A program made the position numbers and the translations under genes. Source: Opitutia bacterium (GTDB taxonomy: Bacteria; Verrucomicrobiota; Verrucomicrobiia; Opitutales; Opitutaceae). From it: DNA of 33,178 nucleotides. Under the pieces are notes generated by a model, which saw nothing but the letters and a program-made list of their open reading frames with translations, was not told where the DNA came from and searched no databases. Every line of letters starts with the position of its first letter. The stretch's first letter is position 1. Positions 3,113 through 22,804 of the stretch are shown here, in pieces. The stretch is from assembly GCA_025360615.1 (NCBI GenBank), contig JANYBX010000357.1, positions 1-33,178 of the forward strand. Direction: 5' to 3'.

Positions 3113-5455
3113 TCACCAGAATTTATAAGTCACCGAAAAGCGCACGTTCGTCGGCAGTCCGGGCACCTGCACCAGCGCGCTGCGCGAGGCGAAGATGTAT
3201 TTTTTGTTGAGGAGATTATCGACGTTGAGCTGATAGGTGATCGCCTTCGTCGCGTAGCTCAGGCTGAGGTCGAGGAGCGTGCGAGCGGGCAGATAGCCGT
3301 AGAAAACCTGGCTGCCGGAGTTGTCGTTGATCGAGCGCTTGCCGAGGTAGCTGGTGCCGAGACTCGCGGACAAACCCTTGAACGTCGCGTCCGTGAACTT
3401 GTAGCGCGCCCACAGCGCCATGGTCTGTTCGGCGACGTTATTAACCGGGATCGTCTTGTGCACCTGGCCGTCGCCGGGCTGCACGATCTGGTTCCACGGC
3501 GAGGCGAGCTCGATGTGGGCTTTGAAATGCGCGAACGAGCCGATGAGATCCCAATTCTTGTCCACCGAGAACGTGAAGTCGCCGTCGAAGCCGCGCGATG
3601 TCTGGCCGCCGACGACGACGACGGACGGCGGATTCGTCTGCGGGAAGGCCGGGACGGTGTTGTTGAACTGCGAGACTTCGAAGTAGGCCGCGTTGAACGT
3701 GAGTCGGCCGCCGAGCCACGTGGTCTTCACGCCGGTTTCCTTTTGCTGGCCTTCGGAGGGCGGCAGCAATCCACCGACGCCCGCGGGCGTGGTGCCAAAG
3801 CCGTTGAACGCGAAATTTTTCGAGCTGCCGTAGAACACCGAGATGTTCGGGAGTGGCTTCACGAGGAGGCCGTATTGCACGAGGTTTTTGTAGGCGACCG
3901 AATTGGGAAACACGTTGCTATCCGCCGCCGCGCCGGCCACCGCGGTGCCCGCATTCACGTTGGGCGAGCCGGCCTGGATGTAGTTGTTCTGCAGGCGGGA
4001 GCTCTCATAGCGGCTGCGCGAAACACCGACGTTCGCGATCACGCGGTTGCTGAAAAAATTCGCCGTCTCGAGGGCGAAGAGCTTCGCGAAGTTTTGCGTG
4101 ATGTGGTTAAACGTGACTGGCGGCTGGCTGAATGCGACGCTCACCACACCCGGGAATTGCGGGTTCAACGGATCGATCTGGCTGCTCGACGCCGCGCTGT
4201 TGCCGCCGCTGCTGTAGGTCTTCGTGTCCTGCGGATAATCGACGAGCACGCCGCCGACGAGGAGCTTGTGGCTGGCCGGGCCGGTGCTGAAACTGAAGAC
4301 GTAGTCGTGCTGCAGTTCGCGACGCGGCTGGTAGTCGCCGTTGATCGCGGTGGTAGCGCGGTTGTATTTCGTGCCCGGCGTGTAGCTGGCGGGAATCTGG
4401 TAGCCCGGGACGGAGACGTTCACGCCGTTGACGACCTGCGTGGTGTTGACCGTGCCGAGGATGGACTCCACGCGGCGCTGCGTGTCCTTCGAATCAAAGG
4501 CCGCGAACCGGATCGCGACCCAGTCGGCCGGACGCGTGGTGAACTGGCCCCACAGCCGATAATACGAGTCGGTGCGCCAGTTGTTCGGGCGGTCTTCGCC
4601 ATCGAAATTCGTATTGTAGGGGACGTTGACCACCGTGTTCGTGCGGCCGTCGAGCGGGAGGCCGTTATAGGAGGAGTAGTGGCTGTTGAAGGCTTCGAAT
4701 TTCAGCCACACCTGCGTGTCCTTGCTGAAATCATAGCTTAGCATCGGCAGGATCGCCGTGCGTTTTTCATAGGTGTGGTCGAAGTAGCCTTTGGAGTCCT
4801 GGCCGGAGAGGAGGAAACGATAGGCAAACTTCTTGTCGGCCGTGATCGGGCCGCCGATGTCGAGGTCGGCGCGGTTCGCATCCCAGCGGCCGACTTGCAG
4901 CGTGAGCGTGCCCACGTTGTAGGAGGTCGGGTTCTTGGAAACCTTGTTGATCACGCCGCCGACGGTGTTCGCCTGATTCGCGATGAAGATGGCCGCGGGG
5001 CCCTTGATGATCTCGACGTGGTCGACGATGTTCAGATCGGTATTCTTGTCCGTCTGCGTGCGAAAGCCGTCGATGAAATCGCCTTCGCCGACGAAACCGC
5101 GAATCATGTAGCGGTCAACCGACCACGAGATGGTTCCGGTCTGCGCACCGCCCACGTAGTTGAGCGACTTCGCCATGATGGTCGGGCTCGCGCTGTCGAG
5201 GAAGAGCTTGTTCAGGACGACCACGGATTGCGCGAGGTCGCCGAGATCGACGCCGATGCGCGTCGTGCTCAACGCCTGCTTGCCGATGAAGCTGGTATCC
5301 TTTTCCGAGGAGACTTTGAACTCGGGCAGCTTGGTCGCTTCTTCGTTCGCGGCGGAAGCGGTGGTATTGGTGGGCGCGGACTGCGCGCGGCCGAGTGAAA
5401 CGCAGCCGGCGGCTAGCAAGGCGGACAGGAGAATTCGATAACGGTGGTGGTGCAT
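3113..5455 (-). CDS. TonB-dependent siderophore-type outer-membrane receptor without STN domain
   Basis: This receptor of 780 residues is a paralogue of the neighbour at 302-2902. Its plug nearly repeats the neighbour's (YMIRGFVGEGDFIDGF, VEIIKGPAAIFIANQANTVGG), but it has no STN domain: the signal peptide (MHHHRYRILLSALLAAG, cleavage near GRA-QSAP) leads straight to the region LPEFKVSSEKDTSFIGKQ. I chose the ATG at 5455 because it gives a standard signal peptide; the frame stays open to 5539, where upstream Mets would give an unusual N-terminus. No good ribosome site is seen at either. The C-terminus ends YKFW, one Trp after the usual terminal Phe used for outer-membrane assembly, which is unusual. 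A strong terminator follows. Role: uptake of iron chelates or a related ligand, inferred from the family. Confidence 0.92.
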   Translation of the reverse strand: MHHHRYRILLSALLAAGCVSLGRAQSAPTNTTASAANEEATKLPEFKVSSEKDTSFIGKQALSTTRIGVDLGDLAQSVVVLNKLFLDSASPTIMAKSLNYVGGAQTGTISWSVDRYMIRGFVGEGDFIDGFRTQTDKNTDLNIVDHVEIIKGPAAIFIANQANTVGGVINKVSKNPTSYNVGTLTLQVGRWDANRADLDIGGPITADKKFAYRFLLSGQDSKGYFDHTYEKRTAILPMLSYDFSKDTQVWLKFEAFNSHYSSYNGLPLDGRTNTVVNVPYNTNFDGEDRPNNWRTDSYYRLWGQFTTRPADWVAIRFAAFDSKDTQRRVESILGTVNTTQVVNGVNVSVPGYQIPASYTPGTKYNRATTAINGDYQPRRELQHDYVFSFSTGPASHKLLVGGVLVDYPQDTKTYSSGGNSAASSSQIDPLNPQFPGVVSVAFSQPPVTFNHITQNFAKLFALETANFFSNRVIANVGVSRSRYESSRLQNNYIQAGSPNVNAGTAVAGAAADSNVFPNSVAYKNLVQYGLLVKPLPNISVFYGSSKNFAFNGFGTTPAGVGGLLPPSEGQQKETGVKTTWLGGRLTFNAAYFEVSQFNNTVPAFPQTNPPSVVVVGGQTSRGFDGDFTFSVDKNWDLIGSFAHFKAHIELASPWNQIVQPGDGQVHKTIPVNNVAEQTMALWARYKFTDATFKGLSASLGTSYLGKRSINDNSGSQVFYGYLPARTLLDLSLSYATKAITYQLNVDNLLNKKYIFASRSALVQVPGLPTNVRFSVTYKFW

Positions 5456-5544
5456 GGGTCTGGGGTTGGGTGTGGTCTGGCAAAGGGACGGCAAAGCCAT
5501 CCCAAGAAAAAACGGGGTGAACAAAAACTGACTCACCAATGAGA

Positions 5545-5560: not shown

Positions 5561-5622
5561 ACGCTCTAAGGGAACTTTTTCGTTATTTTTCCCGCACCGG
5601 CAATGGATCGAATTGGAGGCGG

Positions 5623-5644
5623 GGTGCCCCCCAATGCTGTCCCA
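5623..5644 (+). repeat. Left terminal inverted repeat of the IS4-family element
   Basis: The 22 bases match the reverse complement of 6925-6946 without mismatch. The left flank reads GGAGGCGG, part of a dispersed repeat. Confidence 0.88.
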
Positions 5645-5751
5645 CTTAGCGAGGTCGACAAAAACACAAGGGACATTCGAGGAGGGTTTTGTGTCGTTGC
5701 CGAGCTGCTCACGATTTGAGCAGCGAACGGAGTTTTTCGGGTCTGAGCCGG

Positions 5752-6924
5752 ATGAACATCGGCCAGACCGTCTTCAGCCAAGTGATGGCGCGCATTCCTC
5801 ATTGGGAGTTTCAGCGTGCTTACAGCTCGTGCGATGTGCCGTCCCCGAGGAGCGATGCCCTCTCGCCGTGGGATCATTTTCTGACGCTGAGCTTCGCGCA
5901 GATGACCTTTCGCGAGAGCCTGCGCGACATCGAAGCGTGCCTCCAAGCGCAGGCCGGCCTGGCGTATCACATGGGCTTTCGCGCCAAGATCACCCGCAGC
6001 GCCTTGGCGCGTGCCAACGAGCAGCGCGATTGGCGACCGTGGGAGCATTTGGCGCGCAAACTCCTGCCCAAGGTCCGGGGGCTTTATGGCGACGAACCCA
6101 ACGCGCTCGATCTGGACGTGCCCGTCATCGCGGTGGACTCCACCTTGATCGATCTGAGTTTCGCGCTTTGCCCTTGGGCCAACTGGACTGGCACCGACGC
6201 GGCGGTAAAATTGCACGCGGCCCTGGACCTGCGCGGCCCGATTCCCGCCTTTGTCAACATTACGCCCGCCGCTTCCGGCGATGTCTGCTGGTTGGACGAG
6301 CTGCCGATCGAGCCCGGTGCGTTCTATATTATGGATCGGGGCTATATTGACTTTAAGCGCCTGCGTCGCATCGCCGAGGCGGGCGCTTTCTTTGTCATTC
6401 GGGACCGGCCCGACGTGCGTTACTACGTCGCCGCCTCCCGGCCGGTGGATCGCTCCACCAACCTGCGCTCCGACCAGTCGATCCGCCTCAATGGGACCGA
6501 CGCCCCGAAGCACTGGCCCGGCCTGCTGCGTCGCGTCAGCCTCTACGACTTCAAGCACTCCCGCCGTCTCGCTTTCTGGACCAATCAGTGGCAGGTCAGC
6601 GCCGCGATCGTGGCCGAACTCTACCGCCACCGCTGGCAGATCGAGCTGTTCTTTCGCTGGCTCAAACATGGCCTGCGCATCCGCACTTTTTACGGCACCA
6701 CGGCCAACGCGGTGCGCCTGCAATTGTGGGCTTCGCTCTGCACCTACTTCGCCATGGCCATCACCCGCAAACAACTCGGCATCACTGCAAATCTGACGAC
6801 GTTTGTCCAAGTCCTGTCGCTTCATGCGATTTCAAAAAATCCTGTGGCGGAGCTGTTTGCAGAATCCACTACAAGCGCGTCGTCCTCATCAGCAACGCAA
6901 CAGCTATTACTCAAAGACTTATAA
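5752..6924 (+). CDS. IS4-family transposase with DUF4372-type N-terminus
   Basis: This 390-residue enzyme would cut and join the IS ends. The N-terminal domain has family hallmarks (FAQMTFRESLRDIEACL, ARANEQRDW). The RNase H-like core carries D129 (AVDST), D195 (MDRGY) and E298 within the IS4 YREK signature: Y291, R294, E298, K305 in YRHRWQIELFFRWLK. All three acidic catalytic residues are present and there is no frameshift, so it looks functional. The start MNIGQTVFSQ at 5752 matches the usual family start; the frame is open further upstream to 5689 but those residues do not resemble the family. The stop TAA (6922-6924) touches the right terminal repeat. Confidence 0.95.
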   Translation: MNIGQTVFSQVMARIPHWEFQRAYSSCDVPSPRSDALSPWDHFLTLSFAQMTFRESLRDIEACLQAQAGLAYHMGFRAKITRSALARANEQRDWRPWEHLARKLLPKVRGLYGDEPNALDLDVPVIAVDSTLIDLSFALCPWANWTGTDAAVKLHAALDLRGPIPAFVNITPAASGDVCWLDELPIEPGAFYIMDRGYIDFKRLRRIAEAGAFFVIRDRPDVRYYVAASRPVDRSTNLRSDQSIRLNGTDAPKHWPGLLRRVSLYDFKHSRRLAFWTNQWQVSAAIVAELYRHRWQIELFFRWLKHGLRIRTFYGTTANAVRLQLWASLCTYFAMAITRKQLGITANLTTFVQVLSLHAISKNPVAELFAESTTSASSSSATQQLLLKDL

Positions 6925-6946
6925 TGGGACAGCATTGGGGGGCACC
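6925..6946 (-). repeat. Right terminal inverted repeat of the IS4-family element
   Basis: Perfect 22-bp inverse of 5623-5644. It begins immediately after the transposase stop codon. The right flank CACCCCGC continues into the palindromic repeat element. Confidence 0.88.
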
Positions 6947-8040
6947 CACCCCGCATTCGCGTCGCTCACAAGATCACGTCGCCGCGGGGTGAGGGCACCC
7001 CGCCTCCAAAAACACCGCCAGCCATCGGCATCTCCGCCGTCGCCGAACTCGTCGATCTCGTCCGCGAACGCCGCGCGCACGATCCGAAATTCCTCATGAT
7101 GGAGCCGGAAGACCTCCGCGCCCCTGACACCGATCTCGTCGACCCCGCCGCGTTTCCCGCCGAACTCCCGCTCGCCAACTCCGCCCTCCCGCTCAACTAC
7201 GCCTACAAGCCCGGCCAGGCCGACGATGGCGTCACGCTCGACGTCAGCGTGCGCGAAGCCGAGACGCTCACGCCCGCCGCGCTCGACTGGGCCGTGCCCG
7301 GCCACCTCGAAGCCAAGGTCGAACACTACCTGAAATCCGTGCCGAAGGAGCTGCGCCGCCTCTTCGTGCCGCTCGCCGAAACCGCCAAAAGCGTCGCCGC
7401 CCAAGTCGCCGCGCGCGACCGGCTCACCGACCGGCGCGAGACCTTGCTCGAGGCGCTGGCCGCGCAGTTGCGCGAGCGTTTCCGCGTCGCCGTCGAGCCC
7501 GCGCTCTGGGCCGACAAACCACTGCCGGATCATCTCCGGGTGCGCATCCGCGTGATCGACGACGCGCACCGCGAACTCTGCGCGAGCCGCGAATTCTCCG
7601 AGATTCGCAGCGCGCTCGGCACCCGCCAGCGCGAAGCCAGCGCCGCCGTGGCCCGCGTGGAACCCGAAGCGTGGCGCCGCGCCCGCGCCCAATGGGAGAA
7701 ACCGCCGCAGACCGCGTGGACTTTCGGCGATATCCCCGAGCGCGTGCTCGTGAGCGAGCAAGCCGGCGTGCCCGCGCACGCGTTTCCCGCGCTGGTGGCG
7801 GAGAAGGAAGGCATCTCGCTGCGTCTCGCCAAAACGCCCGAGGAAGCCGCCACCGCCACGCGCGCCGGCCTCGCGCTGTTGTTGGAGCGGCAGCTCAGCC
7901 ACGAGCTCACCTGGCTCGAGCGCGATCTCCGCGGCCTGCGCGAACTCGGAGCGTTGACCGCCACGCTCGCGCCGCTGGCGGAGCTGCAAGCGCAAGCCTT
8001 CGCCTCGATCCGCCGCTGGGTGTGCGACGCCCAACGGATC

Positions 8041-8136
8041 GAGGTAGGGCGCGTTATCCCTAACGCGCCGGTGGCGCTCGGCTCTTCCGACAGTCCCGAA
8101 TCGCAGCGGCGGGTTAGGGATAATCCGCCCTACCTC
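8041..8136. repeat. Double-hairpin palindromic repeat (copy A), in frame inside hrpA
   Basis: The ends are GAGGTAGGGC and its exact complement GCCCTACCTC. Inside are two hairpins: GGCGCGTT-ATCCCT-AACGCGCC (8048-8069) and GGCGGGTT-AGGGAT-AATCCGCC (8108-8129). The loops ATCCCT and AGGGAT are complementary. The element is 96 bases, so it adds 32 codons without breaking the hrpA frame. A second copy is at 21700-21788 between genes. The layout (two inverted REP-like hairpins around a variable spacer) resembles REPINs. Confidence 0.88.
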
Positions 8137-8470
8137 ACCGCCACTGCCTTCACCACCGCGCTCGAAAAATCCAAAACCGATCTCCGCGGCATCGTCCCGC
8201 GTCTCACCGATCTCCTCCGCGAAATCCTCGGCCTGCGTCAGGATTTGCTCGTGTATCCGAAGCCTTACTCCGGCCAGGGCCCCGATCTCGCCGCGCTCCT
8301 GCCTCCGGATTTTCTGCGCACGACGCCCTACGGCCAGCTCGCGCATTTCCCCCGCTATCTGAAAGCGATGAAACTCCGCGCCGACCGCGCCCGGCAAAAT
8401 CCCGCGAAAGACGCCGAGCGCGCCGCGCAACTCGCGCCCTACCTAGCCGCCGCCAAACGCTCCTCTCCTC

Positions 8471-8496
8471 TTGGAGGCGGGGTGCCCCCACCCCGC
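8471..8496. repeat. Hairpin repeat of the GGAGGCGGGGTG family, in frame inside hrpA
   Basis: TTGGAGGCGGGGTG followed by CCCC and CACCCCGC gives a perfect 8-bp stem (8477-8484 with 8489-8496) and 4-nt loop. It equals the arm of the element split by the IS (right arm 6984-7009). Downstream, CTCCCTCCAA near 8525 looks like a decayed inverse end, so the full unit may be about 65 bases. In hrpA it encodes a low-complexity linker (GGGVPPP). Confidence 0.75.
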
Positions 8497-8890
8497 AAAG
8501 ACGCTGCAGCCACTGCCGGCACGCTCCCTCCAAAAAACACCGACGCCACTGCCGCATCAGCCGCCACCCCCTTCCGCTGGCTCGTCGAGGAATTCCGCGT
8601 GAGCCTCTTCGCGCAGGAACTCGGCACCGCCGAGCCGGTGTCCACCGTGAAACTCGACCGCGCCCTCGCCGAGTTGCACTCCGCTCCGCGCACCCACGCC
8701 ACGCCAGCGACGAAAGCCGTTCCCAAGAGCGACCCCGCCGCCGCCAAACTTCCGGTCAACGTGATGCCTCTCACCTCGGAAAAAAAATCCACCCCGCTCA
8801 AAAACCTCAGCGCGCTCGACAAGCTGTTTTCGCGCTGAGATTCACGGCTCTCAGGAGCATTTTCGCCCGTGAAGAACGGATTCGTTCCGC

Positions 8891-10033
8891 TTAAACCACC
8901 GGATACGCCTGCGCGATGCGCGTGCCCATCTTGTGATGAACGTTGGGCTGCGCGGTGAAGCTCACGTTCGACGCGGCTTCGAAGAGGACGATGATATCGG
9001 AGCCGCCGAATTGAAAATAGGAAAGCTCCTCGCCTTTGCGCACGGTCACGCCGACTTCGGCGGTTAGGATGACCGAGGATACCTGACACATCCCGATGGG
9101 CAGCACGGCGACGAGCCCGATGGGAGTTTCCAGCACGATCAAACCGCGGGCTTGCGCGAACTGATAGCCCGCGTTGTCCGGGGCGTCGAAATTTCTCCGC
9201 GGGTGCAGCGTATGCCCGCCTGCCCCGTCAGGCACCGCTTCCACCTCCAAATAAACCTGGCCGGGAATCACGCGGGCTTCGAGGACCCGGCCGCCGACCG
9301 GGGCGTGCTGCCGGTGGTAGTCGGTGGGGCTGAGAAAAGCGTGCATGAAAAGACCGCCCATGAAGCGATCCTTGTAGGGGCTGCCTTCGAGAAGTTCGCT
9401 GATTTTCCAGTGCAGGTTTTTGACCGTCACGTGGGAGTCAGGCCGGATTTCCCATTGCCCGGCGAAGGTGGAATCGGCGGGTGAAACCACCACCGTTTGA
9501 TCCGCGATGGCGGCGACGGGGCGATAGCCCGGCTTGGGGAGGCGCGCGAAAATCTGATTGAAAGATTTCCAGCCGCCATGGGGCCGGAGATACTCGCGCA
9601 TGTTGTAGTTGGGAGAATCGTAGAACGATTTCTCCGACTCGGGCGTGAGCGATTCCGGCGTATCAAGAAAAGCGCCCATGGCGTTCGCGTAGGTCACGAG
9701 CCATTGGGAAAAGGTCGTCAATGGCTGGGCCTTGTCGTGGGGGACGACCTTGTTTTGCAGCGAGAGGACCGGCTCCTGATCGACGATGAAATAGAATGCG
9801 CACAGGTGATCGTAGATGCTCTTGCCCGGGAAATTCTCCGAGGGCACCCAATAGAGGAAGCGGTTGATCCAATCGAGATACTGGGCGAGGTCCGTGATGT
9901 CCTTCAGCAGCGGCACGTTTTTGTCATGCGCGCGCTTGATCGCCGTTTGAAAATCTTTCTCCCAGTGATTTTTGGCGATGAGGCCGATCAATTCCTGAAC
10001 GACGGGATGAGACGTTTTTTTGACGGTGGGCAT
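8891..10033 (-). CDS. Phosphatidylserine decarboxylase homologue with PsiD-type N-terminal domain
   Basis: This 380-residue protein has two parts. Residues about 45-165 (DWINRFLYWVPSE, KSIYDHLCAFYFIVDQ, GWKSFNQIFARLPKPGYRP) resemble the PSDC domain found in front of PsiD-like decarboxylases. Residues about 175-375 are the PSD catalytic domain, with HAFLSPTDYHRQHAP (231-245), ETPIGLVAVLPIGM and FGGSDIIVLFE. Ser345 of the GGS motif is where the family cleaves itself to make the pyruvoyl cofactor. No membrane segment or signal peptide is seen. Substrate: phosphatidylserine, or an aromatic amino acid as in fungal PsiD; the sequence does not decide. ATG 10033 gives the natural start, because upstream codons in the long open frame do not resemble the family. 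The gene stands alone and converges with the hrpA remnant. Confidence 0.87.
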   Translation of the reverse strand: MPTVKKTSHPVVQELIGLIAKNHWEKDFQTAIKRAHDKNVPLLKDITDLAQYLDWINRFLYWVPSENFPGKSIYDHLCAFYFIVDQEPVLSLQNKVVPHDKAQPLTTFSQWLVTYANAMGAFLDTPESLTPESEKSFYDSPNYNMREYLRPHGGWKSFNQIFARLPKPGYRPVAAIADQTVVVSPADSTFAGQWEIRPDSHVTVKNLHWKISELLEGSPYKDRFMGGLFMHAFLSPTDYHRQHAPVGGRVLEARVIPGQVYLEVEAVPDGAGGHTLHPRRNFDAPDNAGYQFAQARGLIVLETPIGLVAVLPIGMCQVSSVILTAEVGVTVRKGEELSYFQFGGSDIIVLFEAASNVSFTAQPNVHHKMGTRIAQAYPVV

Positions 10034-10266
10034 GAGGTTTCGGGAGCGAAAGTGAGGAGAAGGAATTCCGTTTCCCACCGGTGAGAACGGTGTGCTCTCC
10101 ACGGTGGAAAACGGATTTAAGCGGTGGGATGAGGACCAGATGATTCCCGAGGCGTGGTGCCGGCCGAAAATCGCCTGACCCACTCCAAAGCGAAATATCC
10201 CGCGCAATGGGGCCATGCGTTCGGCTTTTTTCAGTTCGGCCACTTCAACCCACGCCCGCACGAATC

Positions 10267-10702: not shown

Positions 10703-10882
10703 ATGAAGGAAAGCACACGCGACAAAATCAAGGGCCTCGCCAAGCAAGCCAAGGGAAAGGTGGAGGTGGTGGCCGGCCAACTGGTCGGCAATCTCCGGCT
10801 CAAGGTGCGGGGAGCCGCCCATCAGGAGGAAGGCAAAGTGCAAAAGCGCATCGCGAAATTGAAGAAAGCGCGCGGCCGGTAG
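10703..10882 (+). CDS. CsbD-like small stress protein
   Basis: The 59-residue, very Lys-rich product (MKESTRDKIKGLAKQAKGKV, then AHQEEGKVQKRIAKLKKARGR) has the spacing of CsbD proteins: a short helix 'KGLAKQAKGKV', then 'GNLRLKVRGAAHQEEGKVQK'. CsbD genes are induced by general stress in many bacteria; the molecular role is unknown. It is too short for most ORF filters. It stands alone on the plus strand between the toxin-antitoxin remnant and the DUF1592 operon. Confidence 0.7.
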   Translation: MKESTRDKIKGLAKQAKGKVEVVAGQLVGNLRLKVRGAAHQEEGKVQKRIAKLKKARGR

Positions 10883-11129
10883 TCGGTGGACCGCAGGGCC
10901 GCGCGCCATGCTCGGCGAGCCCGCGCCGGCATGGTCGCGAGACTGAAAAAAACTCCAGCGGTGAACTCGCCCCGCTCCCCATGCTCCGTCACCGCGGCGG
11001 TGAGCTGGGTCAGCCGGTGCCGGGGCGGCCGGCATTTTCTTTACGGTTCGAGCAGCCCCACGCATCTTTTTTCACCCCGATACGACTCCCACCTCCGTGT
11101 GCTGTCGTCGCGATGTTGCGAGTTACCCC

Positions 11130-13550
11130 ATGCCCCTTTTGCCCGAGTCGACGTTTGAGCTGGTGCGCGGCGCGTCCGCGGTGCCTTCGCGGGTCGCGCT
11201 AACGTGCCTGTTGGCCGGTCTCGCCGGGCTCTCCGCGCTGGGGGCGGAATCGGGCGCATCGCTCGTTCGCCCCGCCAATCCCACGGCGTCAGCCTTCGAA
11301 AACTATTGTTTCGAATGCCACGATTCGGGCTCAAAAAAGGGCGGGCTCGTGCTCGATGGCATCGCGGGCAACCACCCCGCGAGCGACCCGGAACTCTGGG
11401 AGCGCGTGCTAAAAAAACTCAGCCACCGCCAAATGCCTCCCATCGACGAGGACCGCCCCGACGAGGCCACTTATCAACAACTGGTTTCGCGCATCGCCTC
11501 CTCGCTTGATCGCGCCGCCACGGACCAGCCCAACCCCGGTCGCACCGACACGTTTCGCCGCCTCACGCGCACCGAATATCAGAACGCCATCCGCGATCTC
11601 CTCGCGCTCGACATCGACGCCACCGCGCTCCTGCCCAACGACGAGCCAAGCCACGGTTTCGACAACGTCACGGTGGGCACGCTCTCGCCCACGCTGCTCG
11701 ACCGCTACGTCTCCGCCGCGCAAAAAATCGCCCGCCTCGCCGTCGGCACGCCACGCAAGACGCCCGGCGGGGATACGTTTCGCGTCGCGCCCGATGTCAC
11801 GCAGGAGGAGCACGTCGAGGGCCTGCCGATTGGGACGCGTGGCGGTGCGGCGTTCCCCTACATTTTTCCTCGGGATGGCACCTACGAAATCCAAGTGCGC
11901 CTCGCCCGCGACCGCAACGAACAGGTCGAAGGCCTCAAGAAACCGCACGAGGTCGAGGTGCTGATCGACCGCGCGCGCGTCGCGCTGGAAACGGTCAAGC
12001 CACCCGGCGCCGACAAAAACGCCGAGCGCGTCGACGCCCATCTGAAGTTCCGCGTGCCGGTGAAAGCGGGGCCGCACGACCTTGCCGTCACGTTCCCAAA
12101 AAAACCCTCCGAACTGCTCGAGACCGAGCGCGAGCCGTTCATCGCGCGCTTCAATTATCACCGTCATCCGCGCACCGCGCCCGCGCTCTACCAAGTTTCC
12201 ATCACCGGCCCCTTCGACTCCACCGGCCCCGGTGACACCCCGAGCCGCCGCCTGATTTTCGGCGACGCGAAAATTTCTTCCGCCGCCCCCGTCTCCGACG
12301 AGGCCCGCGCTCGCGCCATCCTCACCCCGCTCCTCCGCCGCGCCTATCGTCGTCCAGTGAACGACGACGACCTCCGCAAGCCCATGCAGTTTTTCCGCGA
12401 GGGCAGCGCCGAGGGCGCGGGCTTCGAAGCCGGCATCGAGAGCGCCCTCAGCGCGATCCTCGTGAGCCCGCGGTTCCTCATTCGCGTCGAGGAAGACCCC
12501 GCCGGCCTCGCGTCCGGCAGCGTTTACCGCATCGGCGATCTCGAACTCGCCTCGCGCCTCTCGTTCTTTCTCTGGAGCAGCCTGCCCGACGACACGTTGC
12601 TCGATGCGGCGGTGCGCGGCGACCTGCGCCAGCCAAAGCTGCTCGAGCAACAAGTCCGCCGCATGCTCGCCGACGAACGCTCGCGCAGCCTCGTCACGAA
12701 CTTCGCGAGCCAGTGGCTCCAGCTCCGAAAACTCGACTCGATCACGCCCGATCTGCGGCTTTTTCCCAATTTCGACGACAACCTCCGCCAGGCGTTCCGC
12801 CAGGAAACCGAACTCTTCTTCGAGAGCATCCTGCGCGAAGACCGCAGCATCACCGATCTGCTCGGCGCCGACTACACGTTCGTGAACGAGCGCCTCGCGA
12901 AACACTACGGCATTCCCCACATCTACGGCAGCCGTTTCCGCCGCGTGTCGTTTGCCGGCGACCCGGCGCGCGAACGCGGCGGCCTGCTGCGCCAGGGCAG
13001 CATTCTCACCGTCACGTCCTACGCCACGCGCACTTCGCCCGTGATTCGCGGCCACTGGATTCTCGCCAACCTCGTCGGCGAGCCGCCGCCACCGCCGCCG
13101 CCCAACGTGCCCGCGCTGGACGACAACACCGTCTCCGCCGCGCTGCCGATTCGCGAGCGCCTCGCCGCCCATCGCGCGAATCCCTCCTGCGCGAGCTGCC
13201 ACGACATCATGGACCCCGTCGGCTTCGCGCTCGAAAATTTCGATGCCGTCGGCCGCTGGCGCACCGCCGAGGAGCACAAGCCGATCGACGCCTCCGGTGG
13301 TCTCCCCGATGGCAGCACGTTCACCGGCGTCGCCGCGCTCGAGCGCGGATTGCTGCAGCGGCCCGAACTTTTCGCCGGCACGGTCAGCGAAAAACTCCTC
13401 ACGTTCGCCCTCGGCCGCGGCGTCGAATCTTACGATGCACCCGCGATCCGCAAAATCGTTCGCCGCGCCCAAGCGGACAATTTCCGCTTCTCGTCCCTGA
13501 TTCTCGGCATCGTCAACAGCACCCCGTTTCAAATGAGGAAATCCCCATGA
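11130..13550 (+). CDS. DUF1592-family multidomain cytochrome c-like secreted protein
   Basis: An 806-residue exported protein of the type abundant in Planctomycetes and Verrucomicrobia. After a signal peptide (ending near GLSALGAES) it has a first haem site YCFECHD (C60, C63, H64; planctomycete-type cytochrome), then DUF1587 (FRRLTRTEYQNAIRDLLALD), a beta-rich carbohydrate-binding-like region (GTYEIQVRLARDRNEQ), DUF1595 (LLRRAYRRPV), DUF1592 (LASRLSFFLWSSLPDD, ADYTFVNERLAKHYG), DUF1588 (RGGLLRQGSILTVTSYATRTSPV) and DUF1585. The second haem site CASCHDIMDP is at C687-H691. ATG 11130 is preferred because the extra residues from 11097 precede the signal peptide. The stop overlaps the next start (ATGA). 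Role unknown; an extracytoplasmic redox or polymer-degradation function is often proposed. Confidence 0.93.
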   Translation: MPLLPESTFELVRGASAVPSRVALTCLLAGLAGLSALGAESGASLVRPANPTASAFENYCFECHDSGSKKGGLVLDGIAGNHPASDPELWERVLKKLSHRQMPPIDEDRPDEATYQQLVSRIASSLDRAATDQPNPGRTDTFRRLTRTEYQNAIRDLLALDIDATALLPNDEPSHGFDNVTVGTLSPTLLDRYVSAAQKIARLAVGTPRKTPGGDTFRVAPDVTQEEHVEGLPIGTRGGAAFPYIFPRDGTYEIQVRLARDRNEQVEGLKKPHEVEVLIDRARVALETVKPPGADKNAERVDAHLKFRVPVKAGPHDLAVTFPKKPSELLETEREPFIARFNYHRHPRTAPALYQVSITGPFDSTGPGDTPSRRLIFGDAKISSAAPVSDEARARAILTPLLRRAYRRPVNDDDLRKPMQFFREGSAEGAGFEAGIESALSAILVSPRFLIRVEEDPAGLASGSVYRIGDLELASRLSFFLWSSLPDDTLLDAAVRGDLRQPKLLEQQVRRMLADERSRSLVTNFASQWLQLRKLDSITPDLRLFPNFDDNLRQAFRQETELFFESILREDRSITDLLGADYTFVNERLAKHYGIPHIYGSRFRRVSFAGDPARERGGLLRQGSILTVTSYATRTSPVIRGHWILANLVGEPPPPPPPNVPALDDNTVSAALPIRERLAAHRANPSCASCHDIMDPVGFALENFDAVGRWRTAEEHKPIDASGGLPDGSTFTGVAALERGLLQRPELFAGTVSEKLLTFALGRGVESYDAPAIRKIVRRAQADNFRFSSLILGIVNSTPFQMRKSP

Positions 13551-14899
13551 TCATCACCAAAAAGGCCCTTCCCCGTCGGACATTTCTGCGCGGCATGGGA
13601 GCCACGCTCGCCCTTCCCCTCCTCGATGCCATGGTGCCCGCCGCGACGGCCGCCACCAAAACCGCCGCGCTCCCCGTGCGCCGGCTCGGCTATGTGTTCA
13701 TGCCGATGGGGTGCGACCAGTCACGTTGGACGCCGCCCGGCACCGACGGGAAACTCGGCGAGCTTTCCCCCATTCTTCAGTCGCTCTCCTCTGTAAAGGA
13801 GCACGTCACCGCGTTCACCAATCTCGAACTTCGCAACGCCTACCCCGGTTCGCACGCCACCTCCAACGCCGCCTTCCTCAGCGCCGCGAAAGCGAAGCAC
13901 ACCGAGAGTTCCGACTACTATCTTGGCACCTCCGCCGACCAACTCGCCGCGCAGCAGATCGGCCGCGAGACGCAGCTCCCCTCCCTCGAACTCTCGATGG
14001 ACATGCTCCAGACGACCGGCCAGTGCGACAACGGCTACGCGTGCGTCTATCAAAACAATCTCTCCTGGTCCTCGCCCACCACGCCGCTCCCTTCCGAGGC
14101 GCACCCGCGCATCGTCTTCGAGCGGCTCTTCGGCGAGGGCGGAAACCTCGCCGAGCGCCGCGCCGTGCTGCGGAAACGCGCGAGCCTCCTGGACTGGGTC
14201 GTCGAGGATCTCGCCAGCCTGAAGCGCGAGCTCGGGCCCCGCGACCAGGCGCGCTTAAGCGAGTATCTCGACACCGTCCGCGAAGTGGAGCGCCGGATCC
14301 AGAAAGCCGAGGCCGATGTCGCCACGAGTGGATTACCCACCGACCTTGAACGCCCGCTCGGCGTCCCCGCCGCCTACGCCGACCACGCCCGGTTGATGTT
14401 CGATCTCCAAGTGCTCGCGATGCAGGGCGACATCACGCGCGTCTGCACCTTCCAGCTCGCGCGCGAGACGAGCAACCGCACCTACGTGGCCGAGACCGGC
14501 GTCGCCGATCCCCACCACCCGCTCTCGCACCACGGCAACGACCCGGAAAAAATCGCGCGCATGGCGAAGATCAACGCGTTCCACGTCTCGCTCTTCGCCT
14601 ACTACCTCGAGCGCCTCAAGGCCACGCCCGACGGCAACGGTTCGCTGCTCGACCACTCGCTCATTCTCTACGGCAGCGGCATCGGCAATCCCAACATCCA
14701 CGATCACACCAATCTCCCCGTCCTCGTCGCCGGCGGCGCGGCCGGCGGCATGAAAGGCGGCCGTCACATCCGCTACACCGAGCCCGTGCCGCTCGCGAAT
14801 CTCCACCTCACGCTCCTCGACAAGGTCGGCGTGAAAATCGATTCGTTCGCCGACAGCACCGGCAAGATGGGCGATTTGTTTTCGCCAGTGACGATCTGA
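13547..14899 (+). CDS. DUF1552-family secreted protein with twin-arginine-like leader
   Basis: This 450-residue protein begins with a leader containing RRTFLRGMGATLALPLLDAM, which suggests Tat export. The body has DUF1552 features: RLGYVFMPMGCDQSRWTPP, SHATSNAAFLSA, DADQ-like repeats of acidic and His clusters such as PHHPLSHHGNDP, and the C-terminal LYGSGIGNPNIHDHTNLPVLVAGG. The last part recalls the alkaline-phosphatase-like DUF1501/1552 fold with metal-binding His/Asp. The start ATG overlaps the DUF1592 stop, so translation is coupled; this pairing is nearly constant in PVC and Acidobacteria genomes. The biochemical activity is unknown. Confidence 0.92.
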   Translation: MIITKKALPRRTFLRGMGATLALPLLDAMVPAATAATKTAALPVRRLGYVFMPMGCDQSRWTPPGTDGKLGELSPILQSLSSVKEHVTAFTNLELRNAYPGSHATSNAAFLSAAKAKHTESSDYYLGTSADQLAAQQIGRETQLPSLELSMDMLQTTGQCDNGYACVYQNNLSWSSPTTPLPSEAHPRIVFERLFGEGGNLAERRAVLRKRASLLDWVVEDLASLKRELGPRDQARLSEYLDTVREVERRIQKAEADVATSGLPTDLERPLGVPAAYADHARLMFDLQVLAMQGDITRVCTFQLARETSNRTYVAETGVADPHHPLSHHGNDPEKIARMAKINAFHVSLFAYYLERLKATPDGNGSLLDHSLILYGSGIGNPNIHDHTNLPVLVAGGAAGGMKGGRHIRYTEPVPLANLHLTLLDKVGVKIDSFADSTGKMGDLFSPVTI

Positions 14900-14902
14900 G
14901 CG

Positions 14903-16366
14903 ATGCCGATGAACCGAATCGTTTTGTTTTTCGCGGTTGGCAGCTTTGCGTTGGCCGCCCCGTCTCCTCTCGCCGACGCGATCGAAAAAAAGGATTTCGC
15001 CTTCGCTCGCACGTTAATCAGCGACACCCACGTCAACGCCGCGCAAGCCGACGGCATGACCGCCCTCCACTGGGCCGCCTACCACGACGACCTCGCGACC
15101 GCTAAACTCCTCCTCGCCGCCGGTGCGAATCCCAAGGCGTCAAACCGCTACGGCGTCACCCCGCTCTCCCTCGCGTGCACGAACGGCGATAGCGCGCTCG
15201 TCGAGCTCCTCCTCGCCGCCGGTGCCGATCCCAACGCTCCCCTCCGCGGCGGCGAGACGCCGCTCATGACCGCAGCGCGCACCGGCCTCCCCGGCCCCGT
15301 CAAAGCCCTGCTCGCGCGCAAAGCCGACGTGAATGCCAAGCTCCCCGGCGGCCAGACCGCGCTCATGTGGGCCGCCGCCGATGGCCATCTCGCCGTCGTC
15401 GAAATGCTCCTCGCCGCCGGCGCCGATTTTCGCACGCCCCTCGACACCGGGTTTACGCCGCTGCTCCTCGCCGTGCGCGCGTGTCACACCGATGTGGTGC
15501 GCGCGCTTCTCCAAGCCGGCATCGACGTCAACGTCGTCGCTGCGCCCGCCAAGACCGTGAACAAGCTCCTGAAAAAAGGCATGGGCCCGCTCACGCTCGC
15601 CGTCGAAAACGGCCACTTCGAACTCGCCTCGCTTCTCCTCGATCTCGGGGCCGACCCCAACGATCTCCGCTCCGGCTACGCCCCGCTGCACACGCTGTCG
15701 TGGATTCGCAAACCTGACATCGGCGAAGACGAAGGCGACCCGATCCCCGAGGACCACGGCAGCGTCACCAGCGAACAGCTGATCCGCAAACTCGTCGCCA
15801 AGGGCGCCAACATTAATCTTCGTCTCACCGGCGGCCCCTCCTCCGGCGGTCGCATCAACCGCAAGGGCTGCACGCCGCTGATGCTCGCGGCCGACACCGC
15901 CGACACTGCGTTCATGAAATTGCTCGTCGAACTCGGCGCCGACCCGACCATCCGCAACATCGACGGTTGCACGCCACTCATGGCCGCCGCCGGCCTCGGC
16001 ACCCGCTCCGTCGAGGAAGAAGCGGGCACCGACCTCGAAGCCGTCGAAGCCTGCGGCTACCTCCTCAGTCTCGGGGCCGACATCAATGCCGTCTCGAATC
16101 TCGGCGACACCGCGATGCACGGCGCGGCCTTCGCAAATTTTCCGAAGGTCATGAAGTTTCTCGATGCGAAGGGCGCGAAAATTGAAATCTGGAATCAGAA
16201 AAACAAAAAAGGCTGGACCCCATTGCTCATCGCCGAAGGCCATCGTTACGGAAATTTCAAACCCAGTTTTGAAACCATTGCCGCGATCAAGGAAGTGATG
16301 CTCGCGCATGATGTCACTCCGCCGCCCCCGACCCCACCGATCCCCGTCAAGGACTACGGAAATTAG
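14903..16366 (+). CDS. Secreted ankyrin-repeat protein
   Basis: A 487-residue protein with a signal peptide (NRIVLFFAVGSFALAAPS) followed by about nine ankyrin repeats of the form DGMTALHWAAYHDDLATAKLLLAAGANP, each ending in an AGADP- or GADI-like turn; a longer loop sits near residues 265-315. The fold is a protein-binding scaffold. It starts 3 bases after the DUF1552 stop, so it is the third gene of the DUF1592-DUF1552 operon. A second ATG at 14909 is possible. By context it may hold or guide the two exported partners, but this is inference. Confidence 0.9.
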   Translation: MPMNRIVLFFAVGSFALAAPSPLADAIEKKDFAFARTLISDTHVNAAQADGMTALHWAAYHDDLATAKLLLAAGANPKASNRYGVTPLSLACTNGDSALVELLLAAGADPNAPLRGGETPLMTAARTGLPGPVKALLARKADVNAKLPGGQTALMWAAADGHLAVVEMLLAAGADFRTPLDTGFTPLLLAVRACHTDVVRALLQAGIDVNVVAAPAKTVNKLLKKGMGPLTLAVENGHFELASLLLDLGADPNDLRSGYAPLHTLSWIRKPDIGEDEGDPIPEDHGSVTSEQLIRKLVAKGANINLRLTGGPSSGGRINRKGCTPLMLAADTADTAFMKLLVELGADPTIRNIDGCTPLMAAAGLGTRSVEEEAGTDLEAVEACGYLLSLGADINAVSNLGDTAMHGAAFANFPKVMKFLDAKGAKIEIWNQKNKKGWTPLLIAEGHRYGNFKPSFETIAAIKEVMLAHDVTPPPPTPPIPVKDYGN

Positions 16367-16669
16367 GACTCGCCCTTGAATTTTTCTTTTCCGGCCCGTC
16401 TCTGAGCGCAGCGAAGAATCCAGCGGGACGTGACCGAGAGTGCGGCGCGTCACCAGCTCCCTCCCGCGCCGCCCGCCAGCGTGAACCCGCTCACGTCGGA
16501 AAAATCCGCTCCGCTGCAAAACCCCAGCGCGCTCGACAAACTGTTTTCACCGCATTTCCGGTCAACGATCCCGACCACATGACTTAGACGATGGGTTTCG
16601 GCGGCTTCGACCGGAAATCGCGTGACAGCCGCCCGATTTATTTTTTTACCTCACCTTTCCCAATTCCAC
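16367..16669. other. Non-coding stretch with hrpA 3'-end ghost
   Basis: About 300 bases without an intact gene. The only recognisable content is the hrpA tail remnant at 16481-16548. An AT-rich block (TTTATTTTTTTACC, 16637-16650) precedes the next gene and could hold its promoter, but no clear -35/-10 pair is obvious. Confidence 0.5.
16481..16548 (+). pseudogene. Ghost of the hrpA 3' end
   Basis: The stretch encodes VNPLTSEKSAPLQNPSALD then KLFS. It parallels the last codons of the hrpA remnant at 8758-8832 (VMPLTSEKKSTPLKNLSALD then KLFS), with only a short deletion and a few substitutions at DNA level. It has no start or upstream HrpA domain. After the shared part the frame continues about ten unrelated codons to TGA. 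It is a small duplicated or displaced fragment. Confidence 0.75.
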
Positions 16670-17275
16670 ATGAGCGACCATCTCGACGAACTAAAAGGCC
16701 TCGTCGCCACCCTCGAAACCGACCGCAGAGTGCAAAAGGAAAAGGAAAAGCGCGAGGCGTGGACCAAATACGTGTCCCTCTCGATGATTTGCCTGGCGGT
16801 GCTTGCCGCCATCGCCACCCAGCGCGGCGCCAGCCACTCGTCCGCCACGATGAAGCAGCTCAACGAAGCCACGTTTAACCAGGCCGAGGCCTCCGACCAG
16901 TGGGCCTTTTTTCAGGCGAAGGGCATCAAGCAGAGCATCTACGAGCAGGAGCGCGACCGGCTCAACGCCATCGGCAATCCCGACGCCAAGGTGCTCGCCT
17001 CCGTCACCAGTCGCATCGATCGGTATGAGAAGGAAAAGAAAGACATCACCATTGAGGCCAAAAAACTGGAGGCGAAACGCGACGAAGCCCGCGCCGCCGC
17101 CACGCTCGCCGCCGACCGGGGTCGCGAGATGGGCCTCGCCACGACGATCTTCCAGATCGCCATCGCCCTCGGCGGCGTGTGCCTCGTCGTAAAGAAGCGC
17201 TGGCTGTGGTATTTCTCGATGGGCACGGGCGTCCTTGCGGCCGTGCAAATGGTCAAAGTTCTCCTGCTGAAATAA
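16670..17275 (+). CDS. DUF4337-family membrane protein
   Basis: A 201-residue protein with a charged cytoplasmic N-terminus, one membrane segment at about 40-58 (YVSLSMICLAVLAAIATQ), the DUF4337 signature DQWAFFQAKGIKQSIYE, a Lys/Glu-rich coiled coil (RYEKEKKDITIEAKKLEAKR) and two C-terminal membrane segments. ATG 16670 begins the recognisable domain; an upstream in-frame ATG at 16622 adds no conserved residues. Its role in the cell is unknown. Confidence 0.85.
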   Translation: MSDHLDELKGLVATLETDRRVQKEKEKREAWTKYVSLSMICLAVLAAIATQRGASHSSATMKQLNEATFNQAEASDQWAFFQAKGIKQSIYEQERDRLNAIGNPDAKVLASVTSRIDRYEKEKKDITIEAKKLEAKRDEARAAATLAADRGREMGLATTIFQIAIALGGVCLVVKKRWLWYFSMGTGVLAAVQMVKVLLLK

Positions 17276-17310: not shown

Positions 17311-17748
17311 TCAGTCCACTTCTTCGACCGCGTCCGACAACTCGTTGTTGTCGTCCGCTGCCCGCGGAAAATGCTCGGCGAGCAACGCGCCGGCGCGATC
17401 AATCCCATGGACGATCCCGGCGGTGAAATCGCCGCGCTTGAAATGCTCCGTCATCGCGGCGGTAAGCTCCTTCCAGAAAGCGTCGCCGCATTTTTCGTGC
17501 ACGCCCGCGTCGCCGATCACGGCGAAGGTGCGCGAGCGAGGCGCCACGAAGAACAGCACGCCATTGCGCTGGGCGGTGCGCTCCATGCCGAGCCGCTGAA
17601 AGTATTTTTGCGCCGCGAGCATCGGCTCGGGCGCTTTGTGGCGCGACAGGACGACGCGGATTTCTCCCGACGTGCGAAGTTCCGCCGCCGCGATGGCCGC
17701 GGTGATTTGCGCGTGGTCGATCTTGGGCAGGGAGGAAAAAAGGTTCAT
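17311..17748 (-). CDS. Small TPM-domain protein
   Basis: The 145-residue product is a single TPM (TLP18.3/Psb32-type) domain: ELRTSGEIRVVLSRHK, NGVLFFVAPRSRTFAVIGDAG, AMTEHFKRGDFTAGIVHGID. There is no signal peptide, unlike its upstream neighbour, so it may face the cytoplasm or be held by that protein. It is the third gene in the lemA-TPM-TPM operon, starting 4 bases after the previous stop. Such triplets are common; the biochemical role is not settled. Confidence 0.88.
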   Translation of the reverse strand: MNLFSSLPKIDHAQITAAIAAAELRTSGEIRVVLSRHKAPEPMLAAQKYFQRLGMERTAQRNGVLFFVAPRSRTFAVIGDAGVHEKCGDAFWKELTAAMTEHFKRGDFTAGIVHGIDRAGALLAEHFPRAADDNNELSDAVEEVD

Positions 17749-17752
17749 GGGT

Positions 17753-18586
17753 TTACCAGCTGCCGCTCGCCCCTCCGCCGCCGGTGCTGCCACCGCCGCC
17801 GGAAAAACTTCCGCCTCCTCCTCCCCCACCACCGCCGAACGAGCCGCCCCCGCCCCACGATCCGGTATTGATCCACGGTGAACTCCGGCCGCCGCGGCCA
17901 TAGATCACGTTGCGACGGAAGATCGAGCGGAGGATGCCCAAGACGACAAACAGGGCAATGAACGCGCCGAAACCGAAACTGATTCCGGTGGCTCCGCCCT
18001 GATCGTCAGCGTTGGTGCGGCCGGTGCCGCGATATTCGCCCCGTGCAGCCGCCATCATCGCGTGCACGCCGGCGGCCATGCCACCCGTGAAGTCACCAGT
18101 TTTGAAACGCGGCGTGATTTCGTTTTCGAGAATCTGTTTGCAGAGAGCGTCAGGCAGCGCGCCTTCGAGCCCGTAGCCGGTGGCAATGCGCAACCGGTGG
18201 TCCTGCGAGAACACAAAAAGCACCGCGCCGTTGTTGCGGCCTTTCTGGCCGCCGCCCCACGCCTGAAATACCCGCACCGTGTAGTCCTCGATCGACGAGT
18301 TCGACTGCATGTGCGGATAAATCACGACGAGGATTTGATTCGAGGTGTCGCGCTCGAATTGCGTCAGCTCAGCCTCGAGCTGGTGCCCGATGTCGGCGCG
18401 GACGACGCCGGCGTAGTCGTTGAAATGATCGCGGGGTGCGGCAGGAATCACCTCGGCGGCGCGCAGCCCGGCGGACCCGAAAAATCCGATCACACCGATG
18501 AGCAGCATCGCGCCGCCCAAGGTCCACGTCCGCCGCCGACGACAATGGCGCATCCAAAGTCCCGATCGTGCGACGCCAAAAATCAT
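17753..18586 (-). CDS. TPM-domain membrane protein with Gly-rich tail
   Basis: The 277-residue protein has an N-terminal signal/anchor (about 22-43), a TPM domain (FNDYAGVVRADIG, NQILVVIYPHM, RIATGYGLEGALPDALC, ITPRFKTGDFTGGM), a second membrane helix (FGAFIALFVVLGILRSIF) and a low-complexity Gly/Ser tail of some 40 residues. It resembles YgcG. The ATG overlaps the lemA stop (ATGA), fixing the start and showing coupling. YgcG/LemA pairs are membrane-linked proteins of uncertain role, perhaps in envelope quality control. Confidence 0.9.
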   Translation of the reverse strand: MIFGVARSGLWMRHCRRRRTWTLGGAMLLIGVIGFFGSAGLRAAEVIPAAPRDHFNDYAGVVRADIGHQLEAELTQFERDTSNQILVVIYPHMQSNSSIEDYTVRVFQAWGGGQKGRNNGAVLFVFSQDHRLRIATGYGLEGALPDALCKQILENEITPRFKTGDFTGGMAAGVHAMMAAARGEYRGTGRTNADDQGGATGISFGFGAFIALFVVLGILRSIFRRNVIYGRGGRSSPWINTGSWGGGGSFGGGGGGGGGSFSGGGGSTGGGGASGSW

Positions 18587-21278: not shown

Positions 21279-21698
21279 ATGGACCTCGCGACCGCCCGCC
21301 AGCATATTCAAAACAGCTTCGAACGCATGCGCGCACTCTACGCGAAGCCGGTCTTCGACGAGTGGGTGATCCTCGGCCTCGGCGTGAAATCGGGCGGCGT
21401 GCTCGCCTATACCGGGCCGCGCCCGGAGAGTTCGCGCGCGCAACTCGCGGACGATGTCGAGCCGCTGCGCGCACTCGCCGCCGGCCGGGATTTCGACGTG
21501 GGCGATTTCGATTTCACGCTGGACGGAGCCGGCCCGCGCTACGACGCGCTCATCAAGATCGGCGAAACGAGTTACCTCGTGTGCAACAACACCGACAAAT
21601 CGATGAAGGAGATCCGCAGCGACGTCCGGTGGCTGAAGGCGCAGGCGGCGTTTTTCGAGCTGAGCGAAAAATTCCGCGCCGACCCGCTGGTGGGTTGA
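21279..21698 (+). CDS. Conserved hypothetical protein of about 139 residues
   Basis: The product starts MDLATARQHIQNSFERMRAL and ends LSEKFRADPLVG. It is cytoplasmic, with mixed alpha/beta composition: FDEWVILGLGVKSGGVLAYTGP and YDALIKIGETSYLVCNN suggest a small profilin- or roadblock-like sheet, but this is a guess. No motif identifies a function. The stop lies 2 bases before the palindromic repeat at 21700. The frame is open upstream to 21243, but the ATG at 21279 gives a cleaner start. Confidence 0.65.
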   Translation: MDLATARQHIQNSFERMRALYAKPVFDEWVILGLGVKSGGVLAYTGPRPESSRAQLADDVEPLRALAAGRDFDVGDFDFTLDGAGPRYDALIKIGETSYLVCNNTDKSMKEIRSDVRWLKAQAAFFELSEKFRADPLVG

Positions 21699-21699
21699 A

Positions 21700-21788
21700 G
21701 TAGGGCGCGTTATCCCTAACGCGCCGGTTGGTCTCAATTTTTCCGATGAGCCGGGTCGCAGCGGCGGGTTAAGGATAACCCGCCCTAC
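21700..21788. repeat. Double-hairpin palindromic repeat (copy B), between convergent genes
   Basis: The first 29 bases (GTAGGGCGCGTTATCCCTAA onward) are identical to copy A (8044 onward), and the 3' part (TCGCAGCGGCGGGTTA, then CCGCCCTAC) matches with two changes; only the spacer differs. Both internal hairpins are intact. It starts 2 bases past one stop codon and includes the stop codon of the convergent membrane-protein gene, so it may serve as a two-way terminator. Confidence 0.88.
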
Positions 21789-22804
21789 CCCAGTAATCCC
21801 GCGCCCACAAACCACGCATACCCCGCCAGCAGCGGCCAGCCCAGCCAGCGCGGCAACCGGCCGCCGAACCCGATGCACGCGGCGTGAATCACCGCCGCGC
21901 CGATCAAAATCGCGAGGCCCGTTTCAAAAAACTTCGGGACCGCCAGCGGTTGAAGCAGCGCGCTCAACCCGAGACATAGCGGGATGCAGATGTGGCCGTC
22001 GCCGACTTGCGAGGCGTAGACGATGTCGGCCCGGCGTTTCGCGCCGTAGTAAAACGCGAGCAGCGCATTCGGCACCACCATCAACCAGCCGCTCAGCCAG
22101 CCGAGATGTTGCGCGTTTAGAAAGCCGCCGCGCTGCGCCGTCAGCCACATGACGAGCCAGTCGAGGCTCACATAGACGACATATGCGCCTGCTAGCAGCA
22201 CCAGCATATCGACCAGGAAAAGCGGGCCGAAGGATTTTCGCCGGGTGACGTTGTGCTTCAGCACGTCGAAAACTTGGAAGCATTGCCAAAAAAGAAACAG
22301 CGCGATGAGCACGAGGCCGTCGCTCGCGTCGAGCGTTCCATCCGCCGCGAGCGCCCACGTGACGCCGCTGAAAAACAGCACGGCGGCGAGCGTGAGCACG
22401 AGCGAGAGGCGGTTGATGCGCCGGGCGGTCTCGGCGGCGGGCGCGGCGGATTTCTTCCGCGAGGGAGTTTTTTTTGCCTTGGCGGCGCCGTTCAAGTCGA
22501 GCCCCCAGATGAGCGCGGGCAGAGCGAGAATGAGCGTGAGATTGGTGACGTTGTTGACGAGACAGTTGGTCACGACCTCCTGCGCGGGCGCGTGCGTCGA
22601 GGCGACGATCCAGACGAAAATTAAATTCCCGAGACCGGAGCAATACGGCATCACGAGCGTGCCGAGGGCGGTGCCTTCGAGGCCCTGTTTTTGCAGCGAC
22701 TCGAAGCGCCAGAGCATGAGCAACGACGCCGCGAGAAACAGCCCGAGGTAAGTCCACGGGCTCGCGAAACCGAGCGTCTCGATGCTCTCCGAAAGCGGAT
22801 TCAC
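21785..22804 (-). CDS. Cation/Ca2+ exchanger-like (CaCA-type) membrane protein
   Basis: The 339-residue protein has about ten membrane segments in two halves split by a Lys-rich loop (AAKAKKTPSRKKSAAP). The first half contains PYCSGLGNLIFVWIVASTHA and NNVTNLTLILALPALI, the second VVPNALLAFYYGAKRRADIVYASQVGDGHICIPL. These two stretches sit where alpha-repeats lie in Na+/Ca2+ exchangers, but the usual acidic GNxxGSNxxN motifs are modified, so the family call is tentative. The GTG start (22804) overlaps the stop of the ABC ATPase gene (GTGA), so they are co-translated. Confidence 0.6.
   Translation of the reverse strand: MNPLSESIETLGFASPWTYLGLFLAASLLMLWRFESLQKQGLEGTALGTLVMPYCSGLGNLIFVWIVASTHAPAQEVVTNCLVNNVTNLTLILALPALIWGLDLNGAAKAKKTPSRKKSAAPAAETARRINRLSLVLTLAAVLFFSGVTWALAADGTLDASDGLVLIALFLFWQCFQVFDVLKHNVTRRKSFGPLFLVDMLVLLAGAYVVYVSLDWLVMWLTAQRGGFLNAQHLGWLSGWLMVVPNALLAFYYGAKRRADIVYASQVGDGHICIPLCLGLSALLQPLAVPKFFETGLAILIGAAVIHAACIGFGGRLPRWLGWPLLAGYAWFVGAGLLG

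Follow-up and report, generated by a model that had tools for sequence, protein, structure and literature searches.

A stranded hrpA tail in an Opitutaceae contig as the probable relic of an old head-to-tail segment copy

Behind the hrpA gene of an Opitutia bacterium, and separated from it by several unrelated genes, stands a short scrap of sequence. It is probably a relic with no function, namely the final ~75-90 bases of an additional hrpA copy, at the join where the segment hrpA tail - TPM2 - TPM1 3' end was once copied head to tail; comparison of sequences leads us to give this reading a probability of roughly three in four. The window (the whole stretch of DNA analysed, 33,178 nucleotides) reads on its + strand hrpA - PSD - CsbD - TPM2' - DUF1592 - DUF1552 - Ank - TPM1' end / hrpA' tail - DUF4337 - TPM2 - TPM1 - LemA, the slash being the seam, and the features concerned are as follows.

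7096..8838, + strand: hrpA 3' part, with DUF3418 domain and conserved tail (Pfam DUF3418, E 6e-100; matching 5' part on contig C157)
8757..8838, + strand: hrpA tail, attached copy (direct repeat and alignment)
8891..10050, - strand: phosphatidylserine decarboxylase-like gene (PSD), 5' limit approximate (Pfam PF02666)
10703..10882, + strand: CsbD-like small gene (Pfam PF05532, E 5e-11)
10871..11060, - strand: TPM2 ghost with its core at 10908-11007; the outer limits come from alignment and are uncertain (similarity to own TPM2)
11097..16366, + strand: trio of DUF1592, DUF1552 and ankyrin repeats (Pfam)
16401..16430, strand not assigned: dispersed repeat of the group (TCTGAGCGCAGCGAAGAATCC; genome search, in which query 35-62 matches in many genomes)
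16449..16473, - strand: ghost of the TPM1 3' end, GGAGGSW and stop, antisense (match to relatives' TPM1 ends)
16474..16550, + strand: ghost of the hrpA tail (repeat D11, alignments to own and G234 hrpA; join point ~16464-16477)
16670..17275, + strand: DUF4337 gene (Pfam PF14235; directly behind hrpA in G234, 86%)
17311..17748, - strand: TPM2, a TPM domain protein under our own label, living copy (Pfam PF04536)
17753..18586, - strand: TPM1, likewise our label for a TPM domain protein, living copy (Pfam PF04536)

The first-pass annotation had reported some 70 bases of hrpA-like tail with no gene attached, and this tail is real, 16477-16548 being a decayed copy of the last ~24 hrpA codons. Against 8757-8831 it is identical in 61 of 75 columns with one 3-base gap, at a local score of 80 where 200 dinucleotide-preserving shuffles reach at most 28, and within it 16500-16548 pairs with 8783-8831 at 88% as direct repeat D11. 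The hrpA of G234, a relative in the same genus, aligns with window positions 16464-16550 in 68 of 91 columns, and the ghost is closer to the window's own hrpA than to that of any relative in the set (80 against 67 for the next). Translated in the ghost frame it reads ..VNPLTSEKSAPLQNPSALDKLFS. A stop is missing where hrpA has its own, and the body of hrpA does not precede it; the sense frame at 16484 is NPLTSEKSAPLQNPSALDKLFS, in which the hrpA stop is absent and the frame continues. K54 and K59 are invariant in 15 aligned hrpA tails, the window's own included, whereas in the ghost one lysine of the KK is missing and Q takes the place of K59, and these changes at invariant residues point to decay. 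Changes between ghost and own tail number 2, 4 and 6 by codon position in 24 codons, which fits old divergence and decay alike. Tails of other genera (49/53 in G059, 51/57 in G185) resemble the window's attached tail more closely than the ghost does. As the ghost is decayed and nothing comparable was seen at the remaining scanned loci, no function would be expected of it, and it is likely to be without one. Just behind it lies an inverted repeat at 16554-16620 (TTTCCGGTC ... GACCGGAAA; fold z -2.2), a hairpin that is a possible terminator.

The tail is specific to hrpA. In the full-length gene of G234 it lies behind DUF3418, which follows helicase, HA2 and OB domains, and the motif xKx[LFIM]xxL, preceded by P, Q, K, S or T, is present at 87 of 106 hrpA loci and lacking at 19. 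Seven genome matches spanning the tail portion of the ghost (G031, G059, G185, G021, G069, G102 and G182) were fetched, and every one of them is at hrpA. A first scan of 55 hrpA loci, the window included, had 54 scorable members (one has no downstream sequence), and here a second hrpA-tail match downstream scores 80 in the window and at most 35 in the remaining 53, which contradicts the refuting case that had been named in advance, a common dispersed motif unrelated to hrpA. A wider set of 106 distinct hrpA loci, from which duplicates, loci with <300 bases downstream and the window were left out and which includes distant, non-Opitutae records, added one second-tail case, L227 (score 69), the rest again scoring at most 35. 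Nothing was found in favour of chance or a common motif, and neither can hardly be entertained as an explanation when 0 of 200 shuffles come near the observed score and no scanned locus except L227 has a second copy. A profile search for the tail across the group (252 genomes placed in the window's family) scored at most 24 candidates per genome and so is no census; among the matches listed, short-frame tails in G119, G113, G071, G083, G053 and G111 each lie within ~850 bases of a contig end and were left uncounted, and further tails stand in shortened frames, for example in G215, G219 and G250. A literature search on hrpA, helicase and Opitut combined, and on this combination alone, found no paper.

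The window's own hrpA had been called a remnant, which it need not be, since a matching 5' part is found on contig C157. Residues 1-827 of the 863-residue G234 hrpA query match G000:C157:24140-26548 at 88%, and the match stops 63 bases before the contig end (26611), at a palindromic dispersed repeat of the kind also seen at window positions 6977-7009 and 8471-8503. It may be that the window carries one half of a complete hrpA, divided either by a break in the assembly or by a rearrangement, and this split state leaves the ghost unaffected. An IS with a DUF4372/DDE transposase at 5613-7009 has perfect 23-base inverted ends (5622-5644 / 6925-6947) and lies within a second family of palindromic repeats (GGAGGCGGGGTGCCC...), at a repeat of which hrpA is divided between the two contigs. 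Another palindromic dispersed repeat occurs at 8036-8137, in frame inside hrpA, and at 21692-21792; searched against the genome the hrpA query gave 22 further match rows, some of them the two strands of one place, all over the 8036-8137 stretch and several in long open frames, and the hrpA matches of relatives in the genus break off at this in-frame repeat. At 302-5539 stand two adjacent minus-strand genes, TonB-dependent receptor-like by eye, with long stretches of 72-82% DNA identity.

Gene order behind hrpA in relatives had been proposed as the check, the question being whether hrpA stands directly before the DUF4337 gene, and in G234, the nearest relative found, it does. There an intact hrpA has its stop ~300 bases before DUF4337 (86%), and downstream of DUF4337 a weak CBS match (68%, 98 bases) is followed by an ABC gene. 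Along the opening 311 residues of the window segment the G234 hrpA is 86% identical, and along the full 580 it is 74-78% identical. At 79% completeness and 6% contamination, and with a second hrpA, G234 is good if imperfect evidence. Of the window-type genes, the one met first behind hrpA across the 106 loci is CBS in 34, TPM2 in 17, DLH in 8, DUF1592 in 2 (G023 and L284) and DUF4337, LemA and s21243 in one each, with none found in 42, short contigs included; CBS or TPM2 thus comes first in 51 of the 64 loci having any such gene, another gene in 13. TPM2 is a usual convergent neighbour of hrpA, and the gap between the two ranges from 19 bases to 7.8 kb across the loci seen. Matches to DUF4337 itself at E<=0.001 came from 21 of the 61 genomes that were searched (a set without G234), and hrpA was not seen at the eight strongest other DUF4337 loci fetched, one of which, L091, has only ~1 kb upstream. 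The adjacency in G234, together with CBS or TPM2 mostly coming first, implies that 8.84-16.47 kb is extra in the window, and the ghost stands at the place predicted for the hrpA end.

Scraps of two further genes lie inside this extra stretch. The core of the TPM2 ghost, 10908-11007, is identical to the living TPM2 in 75 of 102 columns (score 61 against a maximum of 34 in 200 shuffles), has the orientation of the living gene, is not carried by any single frame and is closer to the window's own TPM2 than to any relative's in the set (61, next 54). The TPM1 scrap matches the TPM1 end of L204 in 25 of 25 bases; compared with 12 relatives' TPM1 ends its best score is 51, which 0 of 300 shuffles reach (maximum 36) and which among 494 window segments is reached only at the scrap and at TPM1 itself. 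Against the window's own TPM1 the scrap, only 25 bases long, is at chance level (score 20, reached by 38 of 200 shuffles). Equally, the 5' half of TPM2' sought left of the seam gave a score of 20, reached by 116 of 200 shuffles, and a second DUF4337 copy sought in copy 1 gave 31, reached by 5 of 60, which is no trace above chance. Between the attached hrpA and the seam, then, the interior gene seen duplicated is TPM2, as its ghost, and DUF4337 is without a detectable second copy.

The TPM1' 3' end at 16449-16473, a piece that matches the TPM1 of relatives, directly abuts the hrpA' tail, which begins at 16474/16477, as at a tandem join. When hrpA tail - TPM2 - TPM1 end is copied head to tail, TPM1 sequence comes to stand directly before hrpA at the seam, which matches what is seen at 16464-16477. 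The sequence of this seam region is CG-rich and ambiguous, as became clear when shared bases at the join were assessed.

The intact genes of the extra stretch have different distributions. PSD is rare: at E<=1e-40 it is matched in 5 of the 252 genomes, one of which is the window's own, and identity in the remaining four is 48-51%; PSD and CsbD were seen at no locus in the local set of fetched neighbourhoods, and no donor was identified there. An Ank match at E<=1e-60 occurs in 74 of the 252 genomes, and 22 such loci were examined besides the window. In one locus set the trio is present as a group in 20 of 20, and hrpA and TPM2/TPM1 are absent in the 5.8-19.9 kb fetched; at the Ank locus G234:C75 the contig begins at DUF1552. 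In a second genus the trio is found behind hrpA (G023; L071, 6751-12030) with junctions that differ from the window's. The G023 gap, searched for seam relics, holds no clear TPM2 or hrpA scrap, and its gap gene is also carried by five other fetched loci (L166, L067, L072, L210 and L205). Trees of the G023 and window trios fit one shared insertion and separate ones alike: for DUF1552 window and G234 group at 83/87, and Ank shows no clear grouping. At L284 a DUF1592-type gene stands 3.9 kb behind hrpA. A recombinase was sought among the named proteins of the stretch, and those of PSD, DUF1592, DUF1552, Ank and CsbD belong to other Pfam families.

We suppose that illegitimate recombination joined TPM1' sequence directly before hrpA' sequence, and that PSD, CsbD and the trio DUF1592-DUF1552-Ank then came into the extra copy, presumably because it was redundant. 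The trio would have inserted later in TPM2', the 5' half and most of TPM2' being lost, and hrpA with its tail intact and the distal TPM2 and TPM1 would have remained whole. A past duplication or a move of hrpA had been suggested at the outset; the duplication is the probable one, as that of a segment with neighbours, and a move of hrpA is not needed. Against the head-to-tail copy stands DUF4337: had it been present beforehand, each copy should carry it, and it is undetected in copy 1. The same side takes in the undetected 5' half of TPM2', the shortness of the TPM1 scrap and its chance-level match to the window's own TPM1, and the attached tail's closer likeness to tails from G059 and G185 than to the ghost. 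Relatives with an intact double segment were sought and none found.

Where the second copy came from divides about evenly. It could tentatively be traced to the same chromosome, by plain tandem duplication, or with equal reserve to DNA arriving from a relative, paired by hrpA homology at one end and joined illegitimately at the other; own duplication and incoming DNA predict the same gene order. The window's two tails have diverged to a degree similar to that between window and G234, for which DNA identity is ~80% in the conserved part of hrpA, 79% around DUF4337 and 72% in the hrpA 3' part. Incoming DNA is favoured by the TPM1 scrap, which is unmutated relative to another genus's gene and unlike the window's own TPM1. 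For the tail of G234 the score is 74 with the attached tail of the window and 65 with the ghost, and being nearer the attached tail it counts against the ghost as the resident tail left by incoming DNA.

A single block inserted behind hrpA, with the hrpA tail duplicated at both of its ends and no neighbours duplicated, would also place a tail at either end of 8.84-16.47 kb and would agree with the adjacency of hrpA and DUF4337 in G234. We regard it as unlikely, given the TPM2 and TPM1 relics inside, in join order, the inserted genes with their unlike distributions (PSD in 5/252 genomes; the trio elsewhere without hrpA) and two tails that differ in 14 of 75 columns, too many for a fresh target duplication. 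Of the insertion block originally proposed, the extra stretch itself therefore survives, supported by the G234 order, and its unity as one block between two tails does not, in view of the inner relics and the differing gene distributions. An assembly chimera, contigs of two strains joined, is less probable still; the genome is a 557-contig draft (4.58 Mb, the window being contig C196) and hrpA adjoins on its left (~6.97 kb) a dispersed repeat where a false join might arise, but no 15-mer at the ghost seam is repeated elsewhere in the window and the TPM1-end pattern of 21 bases has one mismatch-free occurrence in the assembly, which together speak against an assembly join there, and the scraps are decayed, unlike strain copies.

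L227 bears on two other readings. At L227 9449-10690 two small antisense genes lie behind an intact hrpA end, and after them comes a further hrpA tail, in frame, 66 codons long and closed by a stop, with 81% DNA identity over 210 columns; L227 is a draft contig. The small proteins of this cargo have no Pfam match, and by eye we take the two genes to be toxin-antitoxin pair-like. L231 has DNA matching both cargo genes and leaves the second tail unmatched beyond its own hrpA end, and the contig of L226 ends inside the two genes. A site-specific integrative element, using the hrpA 3' end as attachment site and leaving the two tails as its end sites, would account for a second tail behind a short cargo at L227 as well as in the window; it is nonetheless very improbable, as such an arrangement is seen in only 1 of 106 other hrpA loci and with different cargo, the tested proteins of the stretch (the named ones only) include no integrase, and the end repeats are 61/75 alike, not identical. 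Rather less improbable, yet still doubtful, is that foreign genes repeatedly enter at the hrpA 3' end in the group, with window and L227 as two independent cases. Incoming DNA would there pair with hrpA and be joined illegitimately at its other end, hrpA gaining a new tail and the old one being stranded behind the cargo; 2 of 107 loci (the 106 and the window) keep the idea of repeated tail displacement alive and do not establish it. A dispersed motif, a simple target duplication (on divergence and inner relics) and an attachment-site element were all rejected.

Overall the head-to-tail copy would mean that a segmental duplication can still be read from short remnants of three genes when the extra copy is almost wholly lost, and it suggests that a redundant copy may serve as a landing place for other genes. 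The size of the gap between hrpA and TPM2 is a possible measure for counting such events. The history is ordinary genome wear, if unusually readable, and requires no new mechanism.

Two known systems come close. In amplification mutants of Acinetobacter baylyi, as described in the part of PMC9997567 available to us, the joins of tandem duplications are formed by illegitimate recombination with 0-5 shared bases, and amplicons span 12-290 kb. The window resembles these in being a head-to-tail copy with the unit's downstream end abutting its upstream end, and differs from the mutants as that portion of PMC9997567 presents them in that its copy, a unit from hrpA tail to TPM1 end, is old, diverged, filled with genes and collapsed. 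At Acinetobacter CDI loci displaced 3' remnants lie behind cdiA, and the hypothesis put forward in the available part of PMC6336857 is homologous pairing plus illegitimate joining of incoming DNA. As at the cdiA loci, so far as that excerpt of PMC6336857 describes them, the 3' end of the gene is intact and older 3' ends are stranded downstream of inserted DNA; in contrast to those loci hrpA is a helicase gene with no toxin/immunity exchange, and in the window the neighbours were duplicated too.
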